Source: Modestobacter lapidis (GTDB lineage: Bacteria; Actinomycetota; Actinomycetes; Mycobacteriales; Geodermatophilaceae). Taken from it: a DNA stretch of 64,000 nucleotides. Positions 10,079 to 52,287 of the stretch are shown one piece after another. Below the pieces are notes generated by a model. It saw only the letters and a program-made list of their open reading frames with translations, made no database searches and was not told where the DNA came from. A program made the translations under genes and the position numbers. How positions within the stretch are numbered: position 1 is the first letter of the stretch; the number at the start of each line of letters is the position of its first letter. The stretch is taken from assembly GCA_019779905.1 (NCBI GenBank), contig JABAKE010000004.1, positions 124,001-188,000 of the forward strand, in the 5' to 3' direction.

Positions 10079-10108
10079 CTGGGGCCAAAGTCGCGACTTT
10101 GGCCCCAG
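10079..10108. repeat. 30-bp perfect palindrome (GQSRDFGP family), intergenic copy
   Basis: A perfect inverted repeat with 15-nt arms (CTGGGGCCAAAGTCG and its complement) and no loop, in the spacer between cobN and the BNR gene, 15 nt downstream of the cobN stop. The 26-bp core is identical to the coding copy in cobG. It could serve as a terminator stem for cobN, but there is no T-run. Confidence 0.95.
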
Positions 10109-10123
10109 GTGGCGGGCACGACG

Positions 10124-13100
10124 TCAGCGGGAGTGGGCTCGCGCCGGGGTGTCCCCGCCCTCGAGGTCGCCCTCGGTGTCCAGGTAGGCCTGCTGCAGCT
10201 CGGCGAGCAGCGCCGGGTCGGGATCGGCCCACATCTGCCGGTCGACCGCCTCCAGCAGCCGCTCGGCGATGCCGTGCAGGGCCCACGGATTCGACTTCTC
10301 CATGAACTCCCGGTTCTCCGGGTCGAGCACGTAGGTCTGGGCGAGCTTCTCGTACATCCAGTCGGCGACCACCCCGGTGGTGGCGTCGTAGCCGAAGAGG
10401 TAGTCGACGGTCGCGGCCAGCTCGAACGCGCCCTTGTAGCCGTGCCGGCGCATCGCGGCCAGCCACTTGGGGTTGACCACGCGGGCGCGGAACACCCGGG
10501 AGGTCTCCTCGAGCAGGGACCGGGTCTTCACCTGCTCGGGCCGGGTGGAGTCGCCGATGTAGGCCGCGGGCGCAGCCCCGGTCAGCGCACGGACGGTGGC
10601 GACCATCCCGCCGTGGTACTGGAAGTAGTCGTCGGAGTCGGCGATGTCGTGCTCGCGGGTGTCCACGTTCTTGGCGGCCACCGCGATCCGCTTGTAGGCG
10701 GTCTCCATGTCCGGCCGCGCGTTGACCCCGTCGAGATCCCGGCCGTAGGCGTAGCCGCCCCAGACGGCGTAGACCTCGGCCAGGTCGGCATCCCCGCGCC
10801 AGTCGCGGGAGTCGATCAGCGACAGCAGGCCGGCCCCGTAGGCGCCCGGCTTCGAGCCGAACACCCGGGTGGTGGCCCGCCGGCGGTCGCCGTGGATGGC
10901 CTGGTCGGCGTCCACGTGGGCCTTCACGTAGTTCTCGGCGTCGGACTCGGCGGAGAGGCCGGCCACCAGGGTCACCGCGTCGTCCAGCATGGTCACCACG
11001 TGCGGGAACGCGTCCCGGAAGAAGCCGCTGATCCGCACCGTCACGTCGATCCGCGGCCGGCCCAGCTCGTCGAGCGGGATGGGCTCCAGCCCGGTGACCC
11101 GCCGGGAGGCGTCGTCCCAGACCGGCCGGACGCCGAGCAGCGCCAGGACCTCCGCGACGTCGTCACCCGAGGTGCGCATCGCCGAGGTGCCCCACACCGA
11201 CAGGCCCACCGAGCGGGGGTGCGCGCCGGTGTCGGCGACGTAGCGCTCGACCAGCGACTCGGCCATCGCCGACCCGGTCTCCCAGGCCAGCCGGGAGGGG
11301 ATGGCGCGCGGGTCGACGGAGTAGAAGTTGCGCCCGGTCGGCAGCACGTTCACCAGCCCGCGCAGCGGCGACCCGGACGGCCCGGCCGGCACGTAGCCGC
11401 CGTCCAGGGCGTGCAGGGTCATGTCCAGCTCGTCGGTGGTGCGCTCCAGCCGGGGCACGACCTCCTCGACGGCGAACCGCAGCACCGCGGCGACCGCCTC
11501 GTCGTCCCGGCCCAGCACTTCGCGCACGAGGGCAGAAATGGCCATCTCTGCCCAGCCGGCCGCCTCCATGCCGGCCACCAGCGCGGCGGCCTGCGCCTCG
11601 ACCGCGTCGGTCGCCCTCAGCCCGGCGGTGCCGTCCTCGGTCAGGCCGAGCGCCTCCCGCAGCCCGGGCAGCGCGACCGCACCGCCCCAGATCTGCCGGG
11701 CCCGCAGCATCGCCAGCACCAGATCGACCCGGTTCCCGCCGCTGGGCGGGGTGCCCAGCACGTGCAGCCCGTCGCGGATCTGGGAGTCCTTGATCTCGCA
11801 GAGCCAGCCGTCGACGTGCAGGATCATCTCGTCGAAGTGGTCGTCCTCGGGCCGCTCGGCAAGGCCCAGGTCGGAGTCGAGCTTGGCGGCCTGCAGCAGC
11901 GTCCAGATCTGCTGGCGGACGGCGGGCAGCTTCGCCGGGTCCATTGCGGCGATGTTGGCGTGCTCGTCGAGCAGCTGCTCCAGCCGGGCGATGTCGCCGT
12001 AGGAGTCGGCGCGGGCCATCGGCGGCACCATGTGATCGACCAGGGTGGCGTGCGCCCGGCGCTTGGCCTGAGTGCCCTCGCCCGGGTCGTTGACCAGGAA
12101 CGGGTAGACCAGCGGCAGGTCGCCGATCGCCGCGTCGGTACCGCAGGCCGCCGACATCCCCACGGTCTTGCCGGGCAGCCACTCGAGGTTCCCGTGCTTG
12201 CCGACGTGCACCATGGCGTGCGCCCCGAATCCGCCAGCATCCCGACCAGACCGCAGCCACCAGTAGGCGGCCAGGTAGTGGTGTGACGGCGGCAGGTCGG
12301 GATCGTGGTAGATCGCGATCGGGTTCTCCCCGAAGCCGCGCGGCGGCTGGACCATCACCACGACGTTCCCGGCCCGCAGCGCGGCGAAGACGATGTCGCC
12401 GTGTCCGTTTGTCGACTCGTCGACGAAGAGCTTTCCCGGTGCGGGGCCCCAGTGCTCCTCCATCGCCGCGCGCAGCTCGACGGGCAGCGTGGCGAAGAAG
12501 GCCTGGTAGTCGGCGGCACCGATGCGCACCGGGTTGCCGCTCAGCACCTCCTCGGTCAGCCAGTTCTCGTCCTGGCCGCCGGCGGCGATCAGCGCGTGCA
12601 CCAGCGCGTCACCGTCCAGGTCGGCCAGGCCGGGCAGCGCGCCGGGCCCCTCGAACGGGCCGACGTCGTAGCCCTGGCCGGCCATCGCGGCGAGCAGCCG
12701 GACGACGGAGGCGGGCGTGTCCAGCCCGACGGCGTTGCCGATCCGGGCGTGCTTGGTCGGGTACGCGGACAGCATCACGACGATGCGGCGCTCGGCCGGC
12801 GGGGTGTGCCGGAGCCGGGCGTGCGCGACGGCGGTGCCGGCCACCCGCGCGGCCCGCTCGGGGTCGGCGACGTAGGAGGTGAGGCCGTCGGCGTCGGTCT
12901 CCTTGAACGAGAACGGCACGCTGATCAGCCGGCCGTCGAACTCCGGGATGGCGACCTGGTTGCCGACGTCGAGCGGGGACAGCCCGTCGTCGTTGGCGGC
13001 CCACTGCGCGCGGCTGCTGGTGAGGCACAGCCCCTGGATCACCGGGACGTCGAGCTTCGCGAGCTCGCCGACGTCCCAGGCGCCGTCGTCCCCACCGGCC

Positions 13101-20130: not shown

Positions 20131-20970
20131 ATGAACCTGAAGAGCCACCTCCCGCACCACACCCCCCGGTCCGCTCCCGCCCCGTCCGGCGCGGGCCCCG
20201 CGTCGGACGACGCACCCACGCCGGGCGGCGCACCCACGCCGGGCGTGTACCGGGTCCAACGGGCCGGTGCGCTGGTCGTCGCGCTGTTCCTGCTGCTCTT
20301 CGGCGTGCTGGGGCTCAGCGGTGGGCTGGACTTCTTCTCCACCGAGGGCGAGGACGTGCTCGGCCTGTCCTCCAACGGCCTGCTCTCGGTGCTCTCGCTG
20401 GTCACCGCCGCCCTCCTCATCGGCGCTGACCTCCGCGGGCCCCGGGTCGCCTCCACCGTGATGATCGTCATCGGGTCGCTGTTCCTGCTGTCCGCACTGG
20501 GAAACCTGGCCGCGTTGCGCACCTCGTTCAACGTGCTGGCCTTCGAGATGAGCAACGTGCTGTTCTCCGTCGTCGTCGGGCTCGTGCTGCTGGTGCTCGG
20601 CGCCTACGGCCGGATCAGCGGCAACCTGCCGCCCGACAGCCCGTACGCCCACGCCGGCACCGGGCCGGCCGAGCCGCCGGAGTCCTATCCCTCCACCGCC
20701 GAGGAGTTCGCCGCCGAGGCCGCGATGCGGGAGGCGGAGCTCGCGGTCCTCGAGCACCGGGCGACCGACGAGCAGCGGCGCCGCGTCCAGGCCATGCACG
20801 CCGTCCACACCCGGGCGGACCGGCGCCGGGTGTGGCTGCAGGTCGACGCGCAGCGCACCGCACCGGCCGGTGGCCCGCTCCCTGCGGCCCCTCCTGCATC
20901 GGTCCGCGACCGGATCGCGGGTCTGGCCCGCCGACGGCGGCACGGAGCCCGGCGGGTGGCCGGGAAGTAG
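20131..20970 (+). CDS. DUF4383-like membrane protein with charged C-terminal tail
   Basis: A 279-residue protein. A Pro/Ala-rich N-terminal tail contains an 18-bp tandem DNA repeat (APTPGG-APTPGV). Four hydrophobic helices follow (ALVVALFLLLFGVLGLSGGLD through NVLFSVVVGLVLLVLGAYG), and a long Glu/Arg-rich cytoplasmic tail (EEFAAEAAMREAELAVLEHRA). The four-helix core resembles actinobacterial DUF4383 proteins. The ATG has GGAG at 6 nt; a GTG 24 nt upstream is an alternative. Function unknown. Confidence 0.75.
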   Translation: MNLKSHLPHHTPRSAPAPSGAGPASDDAPTPGGAPTPGVYRVQRAGALVVALFLLLFGVLGLSGGLDFFSTEGEDVLGLSSNGLLSVLSLVTAALLIGADLRGPRVASTVMIVIGSLFLLSALGNLAALRTSFNVLAFEMSNVLFSVVVGLVLLVLGAYGRISGNLPPDSPYAHAGTGPAEPPESYPSTAEEFAAEAAMREAELAVLEHRATDEQRRRVQAMHAVHTRADRRRVWLQVDAQRTAPAGGPLPAAPPASVRDRIAGLARRRRHGARRVAGK

Positions 20971-20983
20971 CCTCGCGGGCGCC

Positions 20984-22180
20984 ATGTCCTCCGCCGCGCC
21001 CGCCCCGACCCGTCGCCGGGTCGACGCCTGCCCGGGTGCCCTGCAGACGCACCCGGCCGCCGACGGCGCGCTGGCCCGGGTCCGCATCCCCGGCGGCCTG
21101 CTGTCCGCCACGCAACTCCGGGTGCTGGCCGGCGCGGCCCGCGACCTCGGCGACGGCCACCTGGAGCTGACCAGCCGGGGCAACCTGCAGTTGCGCGGCC
21201 TGCCCGCCGGTGCCGAGCCCCGCCTGGGCGATCGGCTGGCCGCGGTCGGCCTGCTGCCCAGCGCCACCCACGAGCGGGTGCGCAACGTGCTGGCCAGCGT
21301 CCTGTCCGGCCGGGCGGGCGGCGGTCACCTCGACGTCCGGCCCTGGGTGACCGCGCTGGACGCCGGCCTGTGCGCCGACCCGGCGCTGGCCGGGCTGCCC
21401 GGCCGCTTCCTGCTGACCCTGGACGACGGCCGTGGCGACGTGGCCGGTCTGGGCGGGGACGTCGGCCTGCTCGCCCGTTCCGCCACCGAGGTCGCGCTGA
21501 CCCTCGGCGGCATCGACTCCGGCCGGCGGGCCGCCCCGGCCGACGCCGTTCCGCTGGCCCTGGCCGCCGCCCGCGCGTTCCTCGCCGAACGCGACGCCCA
21601 GGGCGCGACCGCCTGGCGCCTGGCCGAGCTCGACGACGGCCCAGCCCGCGTCGCCACCCGCCTCCGGGGCCAAAGTCGCGACTTTGGCCCCGCGGTGGAG
21701 GTGCCGGGCGCGCCGGTGGTGGGGCCGGTCGGGGCGGTGACGCAGGTGGACGGCCGGACGGCGCTGCTCGGCGTCGTCCGGCTCGGCCGGCTCGGCGCCG
21801 ACCAGGCCGACCTCCTCGCCCGCCTGGCCGACGAGGTGCAGCTGACCCCGTGGCGCAGCGTCGCCGTGCCCGACCTCGCCGAGGACGCCGTCGACGACGC
21901 CGCCGTCGACCTGCACCGCACCGGCATGGTGTTCGACGAGGCGAGCCCCTGGCTGCGGGTCACCACCTGCGCCGGCCGGCCGGGCTGCGCGAAGTCGCTG
22001 GCCGACGTGCGGGGCGACGCCACCGCCGCGGTCACCACCGGAGCGCTACCGGCCGGCGGCGCACGTCAGCACTGGGCCGGCTGCGGACGCCGCTGCGGCC
22101 GACCACAGGGCGGGGTGGTCGACGTCGTCGCGACCCCGGCCGGCTATGACATCCAACGCAGCGGAGTCGAAGAGGACTGA
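20984..22180 (+). CDS. cobG: precorrin-3B synthase CobG
   Basis: A 398-residue member of the sulfite-reductase-like family that uses O2 to make precorrin-3B from precorrin-3A, the step that defines the aerobic pathway. [17 protein letters not shown] marks the N-terminal domain. The Fe-S/heme ligands are in [12 protein letters not shown] and [13 protein letters not shown]. Near residues 228-235 the protein contains GQSRDFGP, encoded exactly by the palindromic repeat, between otherwise conserved parts. A TAGCCT -10 box 10 nt before the ATG points to a leaderless start. The stop overlaps cobH (TGATG). Confidence 0.92.
21665..21692. repeat. palindromic repeat inside cobG, translated as GQSRDFGP
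   Basis: A perfect 28-bp inverted repeat (arm CGGGGCCAAAGTCG and its complement) within the cobG coding frame. Its 26-bp core equals the intergenic copy near cobN. It reads [10 protein letters not shown] in the CobG frame without disturbing the frame on either side. Confidence 0.95.
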
Positions 22181-22800
22181 TGCACTCCTACGAGCACGAC
22201 GGCGCCGAGATCTACCGGCAGTCCTTCGCCACGATCCGCGCCGAGGCCGACCTCTCCGGGCTGCCCGAGGACGTCGCCCGGGTGGCGGTCCGGATGATCC
22301 ACGCCTGCGGCCAGGTGGACCTGGTGCCCGACCTCGCGTTCTCCCCCGACGTCGTCGCCCGGGGCCGGGAGGCGCTGTCCGCCGGCGCCCCGGTGCTGTG
22401 CGACGCCCAGATGGTCGCCGCCGGGATCACCCGTCGCCGGCTGCCCAAGGACAACGACGTGATCTGCACGCTGAACGACCCGCGCACGCCGGCGCTCGCC
22501 GCCGACCTGGGGACGACGCGCACGGCCGCGGCCCTGCAGCTGTGGGGCGACCGGCTGGACGGCGCCGTCGTGGCCATCGGCAACGCCCCGACCGCGCTGT
22601 TCCACCTGCTGGAGATGGTCGCCGCCGGGGCACCCCGCCCCGCCGCCGTGATCGGCATACCCGTCGGCTTCATCGGGGCGGTGGAGTCCAAGGAGGCGCT
22701 CGCCGCCGCCGACCTGGAGTACCTGGTCGTCCGCGGCCGGCGCGGCGGTAGCGCGATCACCGCCGCCGCCGTGAACGCGATCGCGAGCACCGCCGAATGA
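22180..22800 (+). CDS. cobH: precorrin-8X methylmutase
   Basis: A 206-residue CobH/CbiC that moves the C11 methyl to C12, giving hydrogenobyrinate. The substrate-binding stretches [13 protein letters not shown] (catalytic His), [29 protein letters not shown] and [17 protein letters not shown] are all conserved. The ATG overlaps the cobG stop by 1 nt and the 3' end overlaps cobIJ by 4 nt, so cobG-cobH-cobIJ is one coupled operon. Confidence 0.97.
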
Positions 22801-24341
22801 GCATCCAGGAGGGCCAAAGTCGCGACTTTGGCCCGGGGACGAGCGGGCGGCTGTACGGGGTGGGACTGGGGCCCGGCGACCCGGAGCTGGTCACGGTCAA
22901 GGCGGCCCGGCTGATCGGCGCGGCCGACGTCGTCGCCTTCCACGCCGCACAGCACGGTCGGTCGGTGGCCCGCGCGCTCGCCGCGCCCTACCTGCGCGCC
23001 GGCCAGACCGAGGAGCTGCTGGTCTACCCGGTGACCACCGGGACCACCGAGCACCCCGGCGGCTACCAGGGCGCGATCGACGAGTTCTACGAGGCCGCCG
23101 CCGCCCGGCTGGCCGCCCACCTGGACGCCGGCCGGGACGTCGTCGTCCTCGCCGAGGGCGACCCGTTCTTCTACGGCTCCTACATGCACATGCACAAGCG
23201 GCTGGCACACCGGTACCCGACCGAGGTGGTGCCCGGCGTGACCAGCGTCAGCGGCGCCGCCGCGGTGCTCGGCCGGCCGCTGGTCGAGCGGGACGAGGTG
23301 CTCACCGTGCTGCCCGGCACACTCCCCACCGAGGAGCTGGCCGAGTGGCTGGCCACCACCGACTCCGCCGCGGTGCTGAAGCTGGGCCGCACGTTCGGCA
23401 ACGTCCGGGACGCCTTCGAGGCCGCCGGCGTGCTCGACCGGGCGTACTACGTGGAGCGGGCCACCACCGACCGGCAGAGGGTCGCCCCGCTGGCCGAGGT
23501 CGACCCCGAGACGGTCCCCTACTTCTCCCTCGCGCTGCTCCCCTCCCCCCTGACCGGGCCGGGCAACAACCCCGACCGGCCGGACGACGAGCCGCTGCGC
23601 ACCGGCGAGGTGATCGTCGTCGGCCTGGGCCCCGGGCAGCGCAGCTGGACCACGCCCGAGGCCGCCGAGGCGCTCTCCCGCGCCGACGACCTGGTCGGTT
23701 ACGGCCCCTACCTGGACCGGGTGCCGGCCAACCCGCGGCAGACCCGGCACCCCAGCGACAACCGGGTGGAGGCCGAGCGGGCCGCGGCGGCGCTGCGGCT
23801 GGCGCAGTCCGGACGCCGGGTGGCGGTGGTCTCCAGCGGCGATCCCGGGGTGTTCGCGATGGCCGCCGCGGTACTCGAGGTCGCGGCCGCACCGGAGTTC
23901 GCCGGCGTCGAGGTCCGGGTGCTGCCCGGGCTCACCGCCGCCCAGGCCGTGGCCGCCCGGGTGGGGGCGCCGCTGGGCCACGACTTCGCGGTCATGTCGC
24001 TGTCCGACGTCCTCAAACCGTGGGACGTCGTCGTCGACCGGCTGCGGCACGCCTCGGCCGCCGACCTGGTGCTGGCGCTGTACAACCCGCGGTCCAGGGC
24101 CCGGCCGCACCAGCTGGCCGCGGCCCGCGACGTGCTGCTGGAGGGCCGCGAGCCCGGGACGGTGGTCGTCGTCGGCCGGGACGTCGGCGGCCCCGAGGAG
24201 TCGGTCACGGTGACCACGCTGGGCGAGCTCGACCCCGAGACCGTCGACATGCGCTGCCTGGTGATCGTCGGCTCGTCGCAGACGCGGGTGACGCCGTCCG
24301 GCCAGGTGTTCACCTCCCGCCGCTATCCCGCCTGCCGGTAG
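22797..24341 (+). CDS. cobIJ: fused precorrin-2 C20- and precorrin-3B C17-methyltransferase (CobI-CobJ)
   Basis: A 514-residue fusion of two SAM-dependent tetrapyrrole methyltransferases. CobI spans about residues 17-265 ([42 protein letters not shown]). CobJ spans about 268-514 ([48 protein letters not shown]). The same fusion exists in mycobacteria. The first 16 residues, [16 protein letters not shown], are a repeat-derived extension upstream of the conserved start. The ATG overlaps the cobH stop. Confidence 0.96.
22811..22834. repeat. palindromic repeat at the start of cobIJ, translated as GQSRDFGP
   Basis: A perfect 24-bp inverted repeat (arm GGGCCAAAGTCG and its complement) beginning 14 nt into the cobIJ coding sequence. 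It encodes residues 6-13 of the fusion protein in the same phase as the cobG copy. Confidence 0.95.
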
Positions 24342-47771: not shown

Positions 47772-47832
47772 AAAGGACCCTGCTGCCCCCCACCGCTCGC
47801 AGGCTCACGGCGGGCCCCTGCAGCGGGGCCGT
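47772..47832. repeat. dispersed 3'-end repeat, copy 2 (minus orientation)
   Basis: Fills the gap between the convergent PemK-like and 70-residue genes. On the minus strand it reads GGGCCCGCCG-GAGCCTGCGAGCGG-TGGGGGG and ends GGGTCCTTTT. A perfect hairpin GGCCCC-TGCAGC-GGGGCC lies at 47813-47830. Terminator-like, in both directions. Confidence 0.65.
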
Positions 47833-49189: not shown

Positions 49190-49365
49190 TGGTCTGATGG
49201 GCGGCGAACTGCGACGGCAGTGGAGGAAGCCCGGTGCGATTCCGGCGCGGTCCCGCCACTGTGACCGGGGAGTCCGATCCCATGCGCGGCCACTGCCCTC
49301 CGGGGCGGGAAGGTCGGGGCCGGACGTCGATCCGGGAGCCAGGAGACTCCAGCCGTCGTCCCTGC
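49190..49365 (+). promoter_or_regulatory. cobalamin (B12) riboswitch of the chlID-cobO-cobB-cbiMNQO operon
   Basis: A near-consensus aptamer: GGCAGTGGAGGAAGCCCGGTG, ATTCCGGCGCGGT and CCCGCCACTGTGA (the B12 box core, 49252-49264). The CCACTG stem mate, GGGAAGGTC and the final GGAGCCAGGAGACTCC (49335-49350) follow. Downstream, TCTCCGGG (49368-49375) can pair with CCCGGGGAGA (49384-49393), hiding the Shine-Dalgarno GGAGAGG (49389-49395), so control is probably translational. It should repress cobalt uptake, chelation and late synthesis when B12 is plentiful. Confidence 0.95.
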
Positions 49366-49402: not shown

Positions 49403-49423
49403 GTGCTCGAGTTCCGCTCGTGA
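49403..49423 (+). CDS. possible 6-codon leader peptide after the riboswitch
   Basis: GTG CTC GAG TTC CGC TCG TGA (VLEFRS) begins 7 nt after the riboswitch-controlled GGAGAGG. Its TGA overlaps the chlID GTG (GTGA). The chlID start has no Shine-Dalgarno of its own, so the leader may bring ribosomes to it by coupling. Confidence 0.4.
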   Translation: MLEFRS

Positions 49424-51519
49424 CCTTTCCCTTCAGCGCCGTGGTCGGCATGGACGATCTCCGCCTGGCCCTGCTGCTCAATGCCGTGTCCCCCGCCGTC
49501 GGCGGGGTGCTGGTGCGCGGGGAGAAGGGGACGGCGAAGTCCACCGCGGTGCGCGCCCTGGCCGCCGTCCTACCCCCGGTGGACGCCGTCACCGGCTGCC
49601 GGTTCGGCTGCGACCCCGCCGCGCCCGACCCGGGCTGCCCGGACGGCCCGCACTCCGCCGAGGAGCCGTCGGTGCGCCGTCCGGCGCGGCTGGTGGAGCT
49701 CCCGGTGGGCGCCTCGGAGGACCGCGTCGTCGGCGCGCTGGACCTCGAGCGCGCGCTCACCGAGGGCGTGAAGGCGTTCGAGCCCGGCCTGCTGGCCGCG
49801 GCGAACCGCGGCGTCCTGTACGTCGACGAGGTCAACCTGCTGCACGACCACCTGGTCGACCTGCTGCTGGACGCCGCGGCGATGGGCACCGCCTACGTCG
49901 AGCGGGAGGGCGTTTCGGTGCGGCACGCCGCCCGGTTCCTGCTGGTCGGGACGATGAACCCCGAGGAGGGTGAGCTCCGCCCCCAACTGCTGGACCGCTT
50001 CGGGCTGACGGTGGAGGTCGCCGCCCCCCGGGACACCGCGCTGCGCGCCGAGGTGGTGCGCCGCCGGTTCGCCGCGGACGCCGACCCCGATGGCTACCGG
50101 GCGCAGTGGGCGGCGTCGGAATCGGAGCTCGCCGACCGGATCGCCGGGGCCCGGGCCCGGCTGCCGCACGTGGTGCTCTCCGACGCCGCGCTGCAGCAGG
50201 TGACCAGCGTCTGCGCGGCCTTCGACGTCGACGGCCTGCGCGCCGACCTGGTCACCGCCCGCGCCGCGATCGCGCACGCCGCCTGGGCCGGCCGTCTGGC
50301 GGTCACCGAGGACGACGTCCGGGTGGCTGCCCGCCTCGCCCTGCCGCACCGCCGTCGCCGGAATCCCTTCGACGCCCCCGGCCTGGACGACGAGACCCTG
50401 GAGCAGGCGCTCGCCGACGCCCGCCCCGACGACGACGGCCCCGACTCCCCCGACTCCCCCGACGACGGACCCCCGACCGACGGCGGCGACCCCTCGGGGG
50501 GCCAAAGTCGCGACAATGGCCCCTCCGGGGAGCCTTCCGGGGGGCCGTCTGGGGGCCAAAGTCGCGACAATGGCCCCTCGGAGGGCTCGCAGGAGGGCCG
50601 AAGTCGCGACGAAGGCCCGCCGAGCAGGGAGCCGACGACGGCGCCGCGCGGCGAGGGCGGCGGGCACACCGACGCCGCACCCGCGCCGGAGAAGGCCGCC
50701 GTCGCCCCCGACGCGCCGTTCCGCACCCGCCGGCTCGAGGTCCCCGGGATCGGCGCCGGCGCGGCCGGCCGGCGGTCCCGGGCCCGCAGCGAGCGCGGCC
50801 GGGTGGTCGGCTCCCGGCACCCGGACGGCGTCGTCACGAAGCTGCACCTGAGCGACACCGTGCTGGCCGCCGCACCGCACCAGCGGGGGCGCGGGCGCAG
50901 CGGCCCGGGGTTGCGCATTCGGCGGGAGGACCTGCGGCAGGCCACGCTCGAGGGCCGGGAGGGCAACCTCGTGCTGTTCGTCGTCGACGCCAGCGGCTCG
51001 ATGGGCGCCCGGTCGCGGATGGCCGCGGTCAAGGGCGCCGTGCTGTCCCTGCTGCTGGACGCCTACCAGCGCCGGGACAAGGTCGGGCTGGTCACCTTCC
51101 GCGGCGACATGGCCGAGCTGGCACTGCCACCGACCTGGTCGGTGGAGGCAGCCGCGGCCCGGCTCACCAGCCTGCCCACCGGCGGGCGCACACCGCTGGC
51201 CGCCGGGCTGCTGCGGGCGCACGAGGTGCTCCGGGTGGAGCGGGTCCGGGACCCGCAGCGCCGGCCGCTGCTCGTGGTCGTCACCGACGGCCGGGCGACC
51301 GGATCGCGCGGCGGCGCCCACGTGGCCGACGCGCAGCGCGCCGCCGGGCTGCTGGCCGCCGCGGGTACGGCGAGCGTCGTCGTCGACTGCGAGTCCGGAC
51401 CGGTGCGGCTGGGTCTGGCCGGTGCGCTGGGGGTGGTGCTCGGTGGGCAGACCCTGCGGCTCGGGGAACTGGGTGCGGAAACGTTGTCCGGCGTCGTCCG
51501 GGAGAGGCGGGCTGCGTGA
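49420..51519 (+). CDS. ChlI-ChlD fused AAA+/VWA chelatase subunit (cobaltochelatase partner of CobN)
   Basis: A 699-residue fusion. The AAA+ part has Walker A LVRGEKGTAKST (about residues 32-43), Walker B VLYVDEVNLL and sensor-1 VGTMNPEEGELRPQLLDRF. An acidic/Gly/Pro linker (about 330-430) and a VWA domain with MIDAS (VVDASGSMGARSRM, FRGDMAEL, VTDGRATG) follow. In actinobacteria this protein replaces CobS and CobT as the motor for CobN. The linker carries three degenerate GQSRDFGP repeats. GTG start; the longer upstream frame is riboswitch. Confidence 0.92.
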   Translation: MTFPFSAVVGMDDLRLALLLNAVSPAVGGVLVRGEKGTAKSTAVRALAAVLPPVDAVTGCRFGCDPAAPDPGCPDGPHSAEEPSVRRPARLVELPVGASEDRVVGALDLERALTEGVKAFEPGLLAAANRGVLYVDEVNLLHDHLVDLLLDAAAMGTAYVEREGVSVRHAARFLLVGTMNPEEGELRPQLLDRFGLTVEVAAPRDTALRAEVVRRRFAADADPDGYRAQWAASESELADRIAGARARLPHVVLSDAALQQVTSVCAAFDVDGLRADLVTARAAIAHAAWAGRLAVTEDDVRVAARLALPHRRRRNPFDAPGLDDETLEQALADARPDDDGPDSPDSPDDGPPTDGGDPSGGQSRDNGPSGEPSGGPSGGQSRDNGPSEGSQEGRSRDEGPPSREPTTAPRGEGGGHTDAAPAPEKAAVAPDAPFRTRRLEVPGIGAGAAGRRSRARSERGRVVGSRHPDGVVTKLHLSDTVLAAAPHQRGRGRSGPGLRIRREDLRQATLEGREGNLVLFVVDASGSMGARSRMAAVKGAVLSLLLDAYQRRDKVGLVTFRGDMAELALPPTWSVEAAAARLTSLPTGGRTPLAAGLLRAHEVLRVERVRDPQRRPLLVVVTDGRATGSRGGAHVADAQRAAGLLAAAGTASVVVDCESGPVRLGLAGALGVVLGGQTLRLGELGAETLSGVVRERRAA
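50498..50618. repeat. three degenerate [12 protein letters not shown] palindromes in the chlID linker
   Basis: Copies at 50498-50523, 50552-50577 and 50595-50618 keep the TCGCGA centre and outer GGGGCC/GGCCCC arms but have lost the inner pairing. All are in the same frame, giving GQSRDNGP, GQSRDNGP and GRSRDEGP. They make up about a third of the disordered linker. Confidence 0.92.
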
Positions 51520-51593
51520 TGAACGAGCGTGCGAGCTCATCCATCAGCGCAGCGCCCGGCAGTCGGCCGACGAGCGCCAGCGAGGAGGACTAG
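51519..51593 (+). CDS. coupled mini-ORF between chlID and cobO (repeat-derived)
   Basis: A 24-residue frame, MNERASSSISAAPG then SRPTSASEED. Its ATG overlaps the chlID TGA (TGATG), and its TAG overlaps the cobO GTG (TAGTG). The codons for Ser-Glu-Glu-Asp place GAGGAGG 5 nt before cobO, so the cassette supplies the ribosome-binding site. Closely related to the two mini-ORFs before cbiO. Confidence 0.55.
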   Translation: MNERASSSISAAPGSRPTSASEED

Positions 51594-52207
51594 TGCCGCA
51601 GGGCCAGGTGACCGCCGTCCCCGCCGACGGGCTGACCACCCGCCAGCGGCGCAACCGGCCGCTGCTCGCCGTGCACACCGGTGAGATGAAGGGCAAGTCC
51701 ACCGCTGCCTTCGGCATGGCGATGCGGGCCTGGAACCAGGGCTGGTCGGTCGCGGTCTACCAGTTCGTCAAGAGCGCCAAGTGGAAGGTCGGCGAGGAGA
51801 ACGCGCTGACCGCGCTGGGCCGGCTGCACGCCGAGACCGGCGAGGGCGGGCCGGTGGTCTGGCACAAGATGGGCTCGGGCTGGTCGTGGTCCCGCAAGTC
51901 CGGCGAGGAGACCGACCACGCCGCGGACGCCGCCGAGGGCTGGGCGCAGATCAAGCGCGACCTGGCCGCGCAGGCGCACCGCTTCTACGTGCTCGACGAG
52001 TTCACCTACCCGATGAAGTGGGGCTGGGTCGATGTCGCGGACGTCGTCGACACGCTGACGAGCCGGCCGGGCAGCCAGCACGTCGTCATCACCGGGCGCG
52101 ACGCCCACCCGGCGCTGATCGGGGCCGCGGACCTGGTGGTCGAGATGACCAAGGTCAAGCACCCGATGGACGCCGGCCAGAAGGGCCAGCGGGGGATCGA
52201 GTGGTGA
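51593..52207 (+). CDS. cobO: cob(I)yrinic acid a,c-diamide adenosyltransferase
   Basis: A 204-residue CobO/BtuR-type ATP:corrinoid adenosyltransferase. The P-loop-like VHTGEMKGKSTAAFGMAMRA lies near residues 26-45, followed by VYQFVKSAKWKVGEENAL, FYVLDEFTYPMKWGWVD, VVITGRDAHPAL and the closing VKHPMDAGQKGQRGIEW, all invariant in the family. GTG start taken after the mini-ORF because it follows GAGGAGG at 5 nt. The stop overlaps the next mini-ORF (GTGA). Confidence 0.96.
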   Translation: MPQGQVTAVPADGLTTRQRRNRPLLAVHTGEMKGKSTAAFGMAMRAWNQGWSVAVYQFVKSAKWKVGEENALTALGRLHAETGEGGPVVWHKMGSGWSWSRKSGEETDHAADAAEGWAQIKRDLAAQAHRFYVLDEFTYPMKWGWVDVADVVDTLTSRPGSQHVVITGRDAHPALIGAADLVVEMTKVKHPMDAGQKGQRGIEW

Positions 52208-52287
52208 CCCTCCCGACCACCCCGACCACCCCGACCACCCCGACCACCAAAATGGCCATTTTGGTGGAATGCGGGGCCAGGCGATGA
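52204..52287 (+). CDS. coupled mini-ORF between cobO and cobB (tandem repeat plus palindrome)
   Basis: A 27-residue frame: VTL, four PTT units, [12 protein letters not shown]. Its GTG overlaps the cobO stop (GTGA), and its TGA overlaps the cobB ATG (ATGA). It is made of four perfect 9-bp CCGACCACC repeats joined to a 24-bp palindrome. The sequence is unrelated to the SASEE-type mini-ORFs, yet the double overlap is the same. Confidence 0.5.
   Translation: MTLPTTPTTPTTPTTKMAILVECGARR
52213..52248. repeat. CCGACCACC x4 tandem repeat
   Basis: Four perfect 9-bp units, in frame with the mini-ORF (Pro-Thr-Thr each). Confidence 0.9.
52244..52267. repeat. 24-bp perfect palindrome, second family (arm CCACCAAAATGG)
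   Basis: CCACCAAAATGG followed directly by its complement, with no loop. Same layout as the GQSRDFGP family (GC ends, A-run, self-complementary centre) but a different sequence; GGCC replaces TCGCGA at the centre. It ends 16 nt before the cobB ATG. Confidence 0.9.

Follow-up and report, generated by a model that had tools for sequence, protein, structure and literature searches.

Within the window, by which we mean the whole stretch of 64,000 nucleotides of Modestobacter lapidis DNA analysed here, the cobG gene contains the palindrome GGGGCCAAAGTCGCGACTTTGGCCCC (21666-21691), which a flanking C and G extend to a perfect palindrome of 28 bp and which lies between the two NIR_SIR_ferr stretches of the gene product (Table 1). 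The initial annotation, which had described this palindrome as perfect, as translated into GQSRDFGP and as sharing its core with copies after cobN (a gene name taken over from that annotation), in cobIJ and in chlID, was borne out: a search with the 26-mer, allowing up to three mismatches, returned five matches in the window (10081, 21666, 22810, 50498 and 50552; mean of 0.00 in 100 shuffles), to which a more diverged third copy in chlID is added. The cobIJ copy starts 13 nt past the stop codon of the upstream gene, and the chlID copies sit between the AAA lid and VWA domains. As had likewise been claimed, the five coding copies of the window, i.e. those in cobG and cobIJ and the three in chlID, have a common reading frame. 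When the whole window was compared with Rfam at the gathering score, nothing was found at the palindromes; the sole match was a cobalamin riboswitch, whose position before chlID suggests that the chelatase encoded there serves cobalt insertion.

Table 1. Palindromes and associated features in the window
Feature	Position	Strand	Remarks
F1 palindrome, intergenic	10081..10106	none	gap downstream of the cobN stop
cobG	20870..22180	+	gene call; PF03460, 2 stretches
F1 palindrome inside cobG	21665..21692	none	read R-GQSRDFGP; orthologous site varies among species
cobIJ	22797..24341	+	gene call; two TP_methylase stretches
F1 palindrome in cobIJ	22810..22835	none	codons 5-13; 2 mismatches in the 26-mer
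Cobalamin riboswitch	49224..49348	–	Rfam; just upstream of chlID
chlID	49420..51519	+	gene call; ChlI-type AAA plus VWA
F1 copy 1, chlID linker	50498..50523	none	read GQSRDNGP
F1 copy 2, chlID linker	50552..50577	none	54 bp past copy 1
F1 copy 3, chlID linker	50596..50617	none	more diverged; read GRSRDEGP
F2 palindrome CCACCAAAATGGCCATTTTGGTGG	52244..52267	none	between cobA (51593-52207) and the next gene

The palindrome in cobG belongs to a family, F1, that has the core CCAAAGTCGCGACTTTGG and the centre TCGCGA, while two further families, F2 (CCACCAAAATGGCCATTTTGGTGG) and F5 (GGGGCAGAAATGGCCATTTCTGCCCC), are centred on TGGCCA. A search of the whole genome of the window (G000; other G numbers denote relatives), which had been set beforehand as a test, found the 22-bp F1 core with up to two mismatches in 29 places, compared with none for the reversed control, and the core is thus dispersed and not confined to cobG. 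The exact 22-bp core was present in 7 of 112 genomes of the bacterial family, all 7 of them among the 23 genomes of the genus, and a scan of 84,980 named species genomes for exact matches returned 34 stretches, all titled Modestobacter. F2 is more widespread, its 18-bp core with up to two mismatches being found in 14 places in G000 and in 32 of the 112 family genomes, representing 5 of 12 genera, and exact 22-bp F5 cores occur in loci of G100, G089 and G104. The reversed control of the 18-mer matched 18 times in G088, 20 times each in G091 and G092, 6 times in G085 and once in G106, because the reversed word itself resembles a different palindrome that is also repeated; these matches uncovered the further palindrome GGTTTCGGCGCCGAAACC (L084:77-118 in G091 and L074:118 in G088). 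Exact F1 and F2 22-mers had no match in viral contigs, which argues against a viral source. Doublets with copies 30-55 bp apart are common, and F2 adjoins several F1 copies. In G000, three F1-F1 doublets (L001, L006 and window 50502-50556) are exactly 54 bp apart, although their spacers are unrelated; exact 54-bp F1-F1 doublets were also seen on contigs C102 and C157 of G094.

Our comparison of CobG across 21 species, in which the states of the site were assigned by eye, demonstrated that GQSRDFGP is not a shared motif, since the same codons hold F1 or decayed F1 (G000, G101, G102, G094 and G100), F2 (G103, G086, G098 and G089), other palindromes or near-palindromes (G105, G092, G087, G095, G085 and G104) or no palindrome (G088, G106, G093, G090, G099 and G091). 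A native conserved motif of CobG is ruled out by these differences among homologues and, with 29 copies against none in the control and exact copies in named isolate genomes, chance or an assembly artefact is just as hard to uphold, so that these explanations together retain a negligible probability. At the cobIJ junction, also assessed by eye, G090 carries a 27-bp in-frame palindrome that is absent from its neighbours G093 and G099. Likewise, among the 22 of 23 HrpA loci that could be parsed, an F2 unit lengthens the gene by 11-15 codons in 4 species, while the remaining 18 all have one shorter length, and the solved HrpA of E. coli has 17 residues fewer than that of G000 at the insert site. 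In KdpA, for which 10 of 17 loci were parsed, F1 was found in G101 and G103 and decayed F1 in G105, F2 in G102, F5 in G100 and, with one mismatch, in G089, and no insert in G091 and G106, while the long loops of G092 and G088 match none of the listed families; the E. coli protein has 10 residues fewer than that of G101 at this site. In the eight of these loci for which identity and insert length were compared, the inserts measure 36-51 bp, every one a multiple of three, and beyond the site G100, G101 and G102 share 95-96% identity in this gene, yet carry three different palindromes. A change from F1 to F2 or F5 at one codon position on a background of about 95% identity is hard to explain by point mutation and indicates that the unit as a whole was exchanged. 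The insertions are thus genuine and involve an exchange of the palindrome core, and it is this swapping of palindromes at fixed protein sites that is the surprising part of the finding.

Intergenic sites proved similarly variable. A single convergent site is occupied by F1 in G101 and G103, by F2 in G086, G102, G098, G000 and G105, and by an F5-like palindrome in G100. At a further locus, G103 and G086 carry an F1-F2 doublet, whereas G101 carries only F1. The gap between glpK, which was identified in G000, and the adjacent gene, presumably glpF, was parsed in 17 genomes and was filled in 9 and empty in 8; 6 genomes keep the TCGCGA centre with arms that differ symmetrically, and 3 have a TGGCCA-centred palindrome. 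Since the palindromes are unevenly distributed over the tree, some of these states may have arisen through losses or through recombination between species, and recombination is a likely source of some of the discordance, as in the HrpA insert of G000, which has non-palindromic edges in common with that of G103, a member of a different clade.

The placement relative to genes was classified for 127 copies (102 F1 and 25 F2) from G000, G101, G103 and part of G086, comprising 29 of 29, 37 of 37, 29 of 29 and 7 of 16 F1 copies, respectively, together with 12 of the 14 F2 copies of G000 and, for the other genomes, those F2 copies that lie within the fetched loci. With genes called by our own codon-usage script, by which starts near N-terminal copies are uncertain, 97 of the 127 copies were intergenic and 30 lay in called genes; at L127:3882, the true gene start may come after the copy, which would leave the copy untranslated. 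Only 13 of 41 copies in G000 fell in called genes, though coding DNA makes up about 90% of the sequence sampled. Most intergenic copies (75 of 97, with a gap-matched expectation of 56) were located within 30 nt of a stop codon, the median distance being 13. Convergent gaps were preferred (29 of 97 copies versus 52 of 275 background gaps; p = 0.006) and divergent gaps avoided (10 versus 71; p = 1e-4), with codirectional gaps accounting for 58 copies versus 152 background gaps. Eleven coding copies in the first eight codons sit 6-22 nt past the stop of the upstream gene and thus have the same placement as the intergenic copies, the next gene simply beginning there.

In addition, the pairing of the flanks beyond the core was compared with that obtained when right flanks were exchanged between loci. 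Intergenic copies had 513 flank pairs versus 442 expected (p = 0.0005; by genome 0.0005 for G000, 0.012 for G101, 0.009 for G103 and 0.44 for G086, with 8 copies), while coding copies had 135 versus 142 expected (p = 0.85). Hairpins are thus extended or retained outside genes but not within them. Insertion into pre-existing hairpins was rejected as the origin of these arms, as the empty glpF-glpK alleles, inspected by eye, have no such arms. Complementary arms restricted to sites outside genes, together with the near-stop placement, the convergent excess and the divergent deficit, are also what would be found if the palindromes formed a species-specific vocabulary of two-way transcript-end hairpins that is kept by selection and spread by recombination, with coding copies as rare by-products, and other strong hairpins, one of them repeated, do occur in convergent gaps. 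However, such a vocabulary leaves the mid-gene copies in cobG, hrpA, kdpA and chlID unaccounted for, as well as a copy between glpF and glpK that about half the species do without; moreover, the listed copies lack a U-run after the core, and the dyad passes through the centre, which an RNA loop formed from one strand does not need. We therefore regard this explanation as rather unlikely. The repeated hairpin, with the shared inside CCCCCCACCGCTCGC..AGCTCGCGGCGGG, was seen at window 47772-47831 and in convergent gaps of contig C90; of the 51 listed gaps of the convergent type, about 6 contain it.

The same dyad through the centre, which is perfect, could mark a DNA site bound by a symmetric protein of nucleoid or regulatory function, and the constant 54-bp distance in the three F1-F1 doublets of G000 despite their unrelated spacers would fit such a site. 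Recognition by a protein is difficult to reconcile, however, with a core that switches among F1, F2 and F5 at one site, with copies that lie after stops and not in divergent gaps, and with arms that are specific to each locus, and a binding site is in our opinion very improbable.

When copies are translated, the favoured frame reads QSRDFG or QNGHFG. The initial annotation had proposed a single phase for all coding copies, which holds within the window but not genome-wide, where 9 of 12 independent coding loci in G000 use this frame (p = 0.004); with two relatives added, it is used at 14 of 19 coding loci (p = 4e-4), and other frames are used as well, KdpA for example having PKSRLWP. The peptide of the favoured frame is hydrophilic and rich in turns, and the bias is best explained by the survival of harmless inserts, as we infer. 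Consistent placements were found in the tails of a CT_C_D protein, methylmalonyl-CoA mutase and an oligopeptide ABC ATPase, and in linkers, as in chlID and between the two half-domain stretches of CobG, while the copies in HrpA and KdpA coincide with alignment gaps relative to solved proteins, by which their placement in loops was assigned. The palindrome was also correctly described as free of stop codons in all six frames, but this is nothing special: between 44 and 83% of arm-shuffled palindromes of four families are stop-free as well, so that a stop-free design is rejected as being near chance.

With respect to the means of movement, the Y1/RAYT transposase domain PF01797 was found in 0 of the 23 genus genomes (5 of which are less than 90% complete), while 5 of 14 controls were positive, and mobilisation by such an enzyme was rejected on these grounds; no target-site duplication was seen by eye. 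The tags of repetitive extragenic palindromic (REP) sequences were at background, with GTAG near 8 of 127 copies (background 6.9%) and CGTC near 47 of 127 (background 37.7%), which speaks against membership in the GTAG/CGTC REP super-families. In a broad sense, the palindromes do resemble REPs, being present in many short copies (29 F1 and 14 F2 in G000) that are mostly extragenic and downstream of genes. As far as the available text of a REP survey goes, REPs are likewise 20-40 bp long, paired, situated after genes in codirectional or convergent gaps and in part translated; intragenic copies and the placement downstream of genes have been described there, as have different REPs at about one recB site in two Xanthomonas species, and the actinobacterial names searched for had no occurrence in that text (PMC3733652). 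Three Actinomycetota are listed among REP-bearing genomes in the accessible part of another study, so REPs have been reported in the phylum (PMC12306157). The Modestobacter palindromes differ from the REP super-families in showing neither GTAG/CGTC enrichment nor a Y1/RAYT transposase in the 23 genus genomes.

The initial annotation had compared the cobG palindrome to the protein-coding palindromic elements of Rickettsia. The comparison is apt in so far as a dispersed actinobacterial palindrome is translated in frame in several genes, with in-frame insertions in HrpA, KdpA and cobIJ that are absent in relatives, just as the Rickettsia elements lie in frame in unrelated genes and are translated. 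It fails in other respects, since the Rickettsia elements, in the parts of the sources available to us, belong to alpha-proteobacteria, are about 150 bp long (PMC10969869) and are said for R. conorii to be marked by the CGTC tag (PMC3733652), whereas the Modestobacter palindromes have a core of about 26 bp, inserts of 27-51 bp and the tag at background. With 97 of 127 copies outside called genes, mostly near stops, they come closer to REPs of which some copies are intragenic than to elements that code for protein. Repeated hairpins after genes are also known in a high-GC actinobacterium from the TRIT-type terminators of mycobacteria, from which the Modestobacter palindromes are set apart, by description only, through their in-gene copies and core exchange. 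Mycobacterial MIRUs are similarly small repeats, found at overlapping stop/start junctions. The small repeats known as MITEs, according to the available text of the survey, measure 70-300 bp and have terminal inverted repeats (PMC3733652), unlike the Modestobacter core, which is one whole palindrome. The open-licence literature that was searched contained no description for Geodermatophilaceae or Modestobacter, and the search terms used turned up none for actinobacteria. The kind is already known in the form of intragenic REPs. As far as our searches show, the novelty lies in the lineage, in the absence of both the tags and a Y1 transposase, and in the abundance of swapped alleles that stay in frame.

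Taken together, the palindromes are probably REP-like mobile hairpins with tolerated in-frame copies, which act like Rickettsia palindromic elements without being members of that group. According to this model, units of about 27-51 bp around a TCGCGA (F1) or TGGCCA (F2 and F5) centre would be gained at new sites, presumably by copy-and-paste movement. Most copies lie a few nucleotides past a stop codon, where locus-specific arms would give a longer hairpin, and position and arm pairing suggest that such hairpins probably serve as transcript-end or mRNA-stabilising structures. A unit would be translated, mostly as QSRDFG or QNGHFG, and tolerated if the position just past the stop already forms part of the next gene, as in ATGA or GTGA overlaps, or if the unit is inserted in frame into a loop, a linker or a tail. 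Occupied sites can switch from one palindrome to another, possibly via a tandem F1-F2 doublet in which a neighbour is gained and the older copy is then lost. Somewhat doubtful, and advanced here as a tentative proposal, is the further step of an unrecognised Modestobacter process, independent of a Y1 transposase, by which palindromic cassettes would be inserted and one palindrome substituted for another at fixed sites, in-frame sites within genes included; if this were true, protein loops like those of KdpA, CobG and CobIJ would act as interchangeable positions that draw on a common stock of hairpins. Palindromes inside protein genes have been described for Rickettsia and some REP-bearing bacteria, as far as the available texts extend, and the filled, empty and swapped alleles in genes of about 95% identity make it testable how movement proceeds without an evident transposase and whether small palindromes feed new loops into proteins.

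F1 sites also tend to be clustered, with 6 adjacent pairs within 5 kb in G101 versus 1.3 expected (p = 0.001), 3 versus 0.7 in G000 (p = 0.03) and 3 versus 0.9 in G103 (p = 0.06). A manual count placed 8 of some 36 distinct sites in G000 in or next to B12-related genes, namely after cobN, in cobG, cobIJ and chlID, after cobA, after eutB, and at the mutase and meaB; they span window positions 10081-52267, plus L115 and L124. As the probability calculated for this association presupposes a background of 1% and involves linked genes, the association is only a lead. Within cobN itself, an F5-like palindrome with one mismatch was noticed at window 11531-11552, which encodes seemingly ordinary helix residues (AEMAISAL) and may be due to chance.
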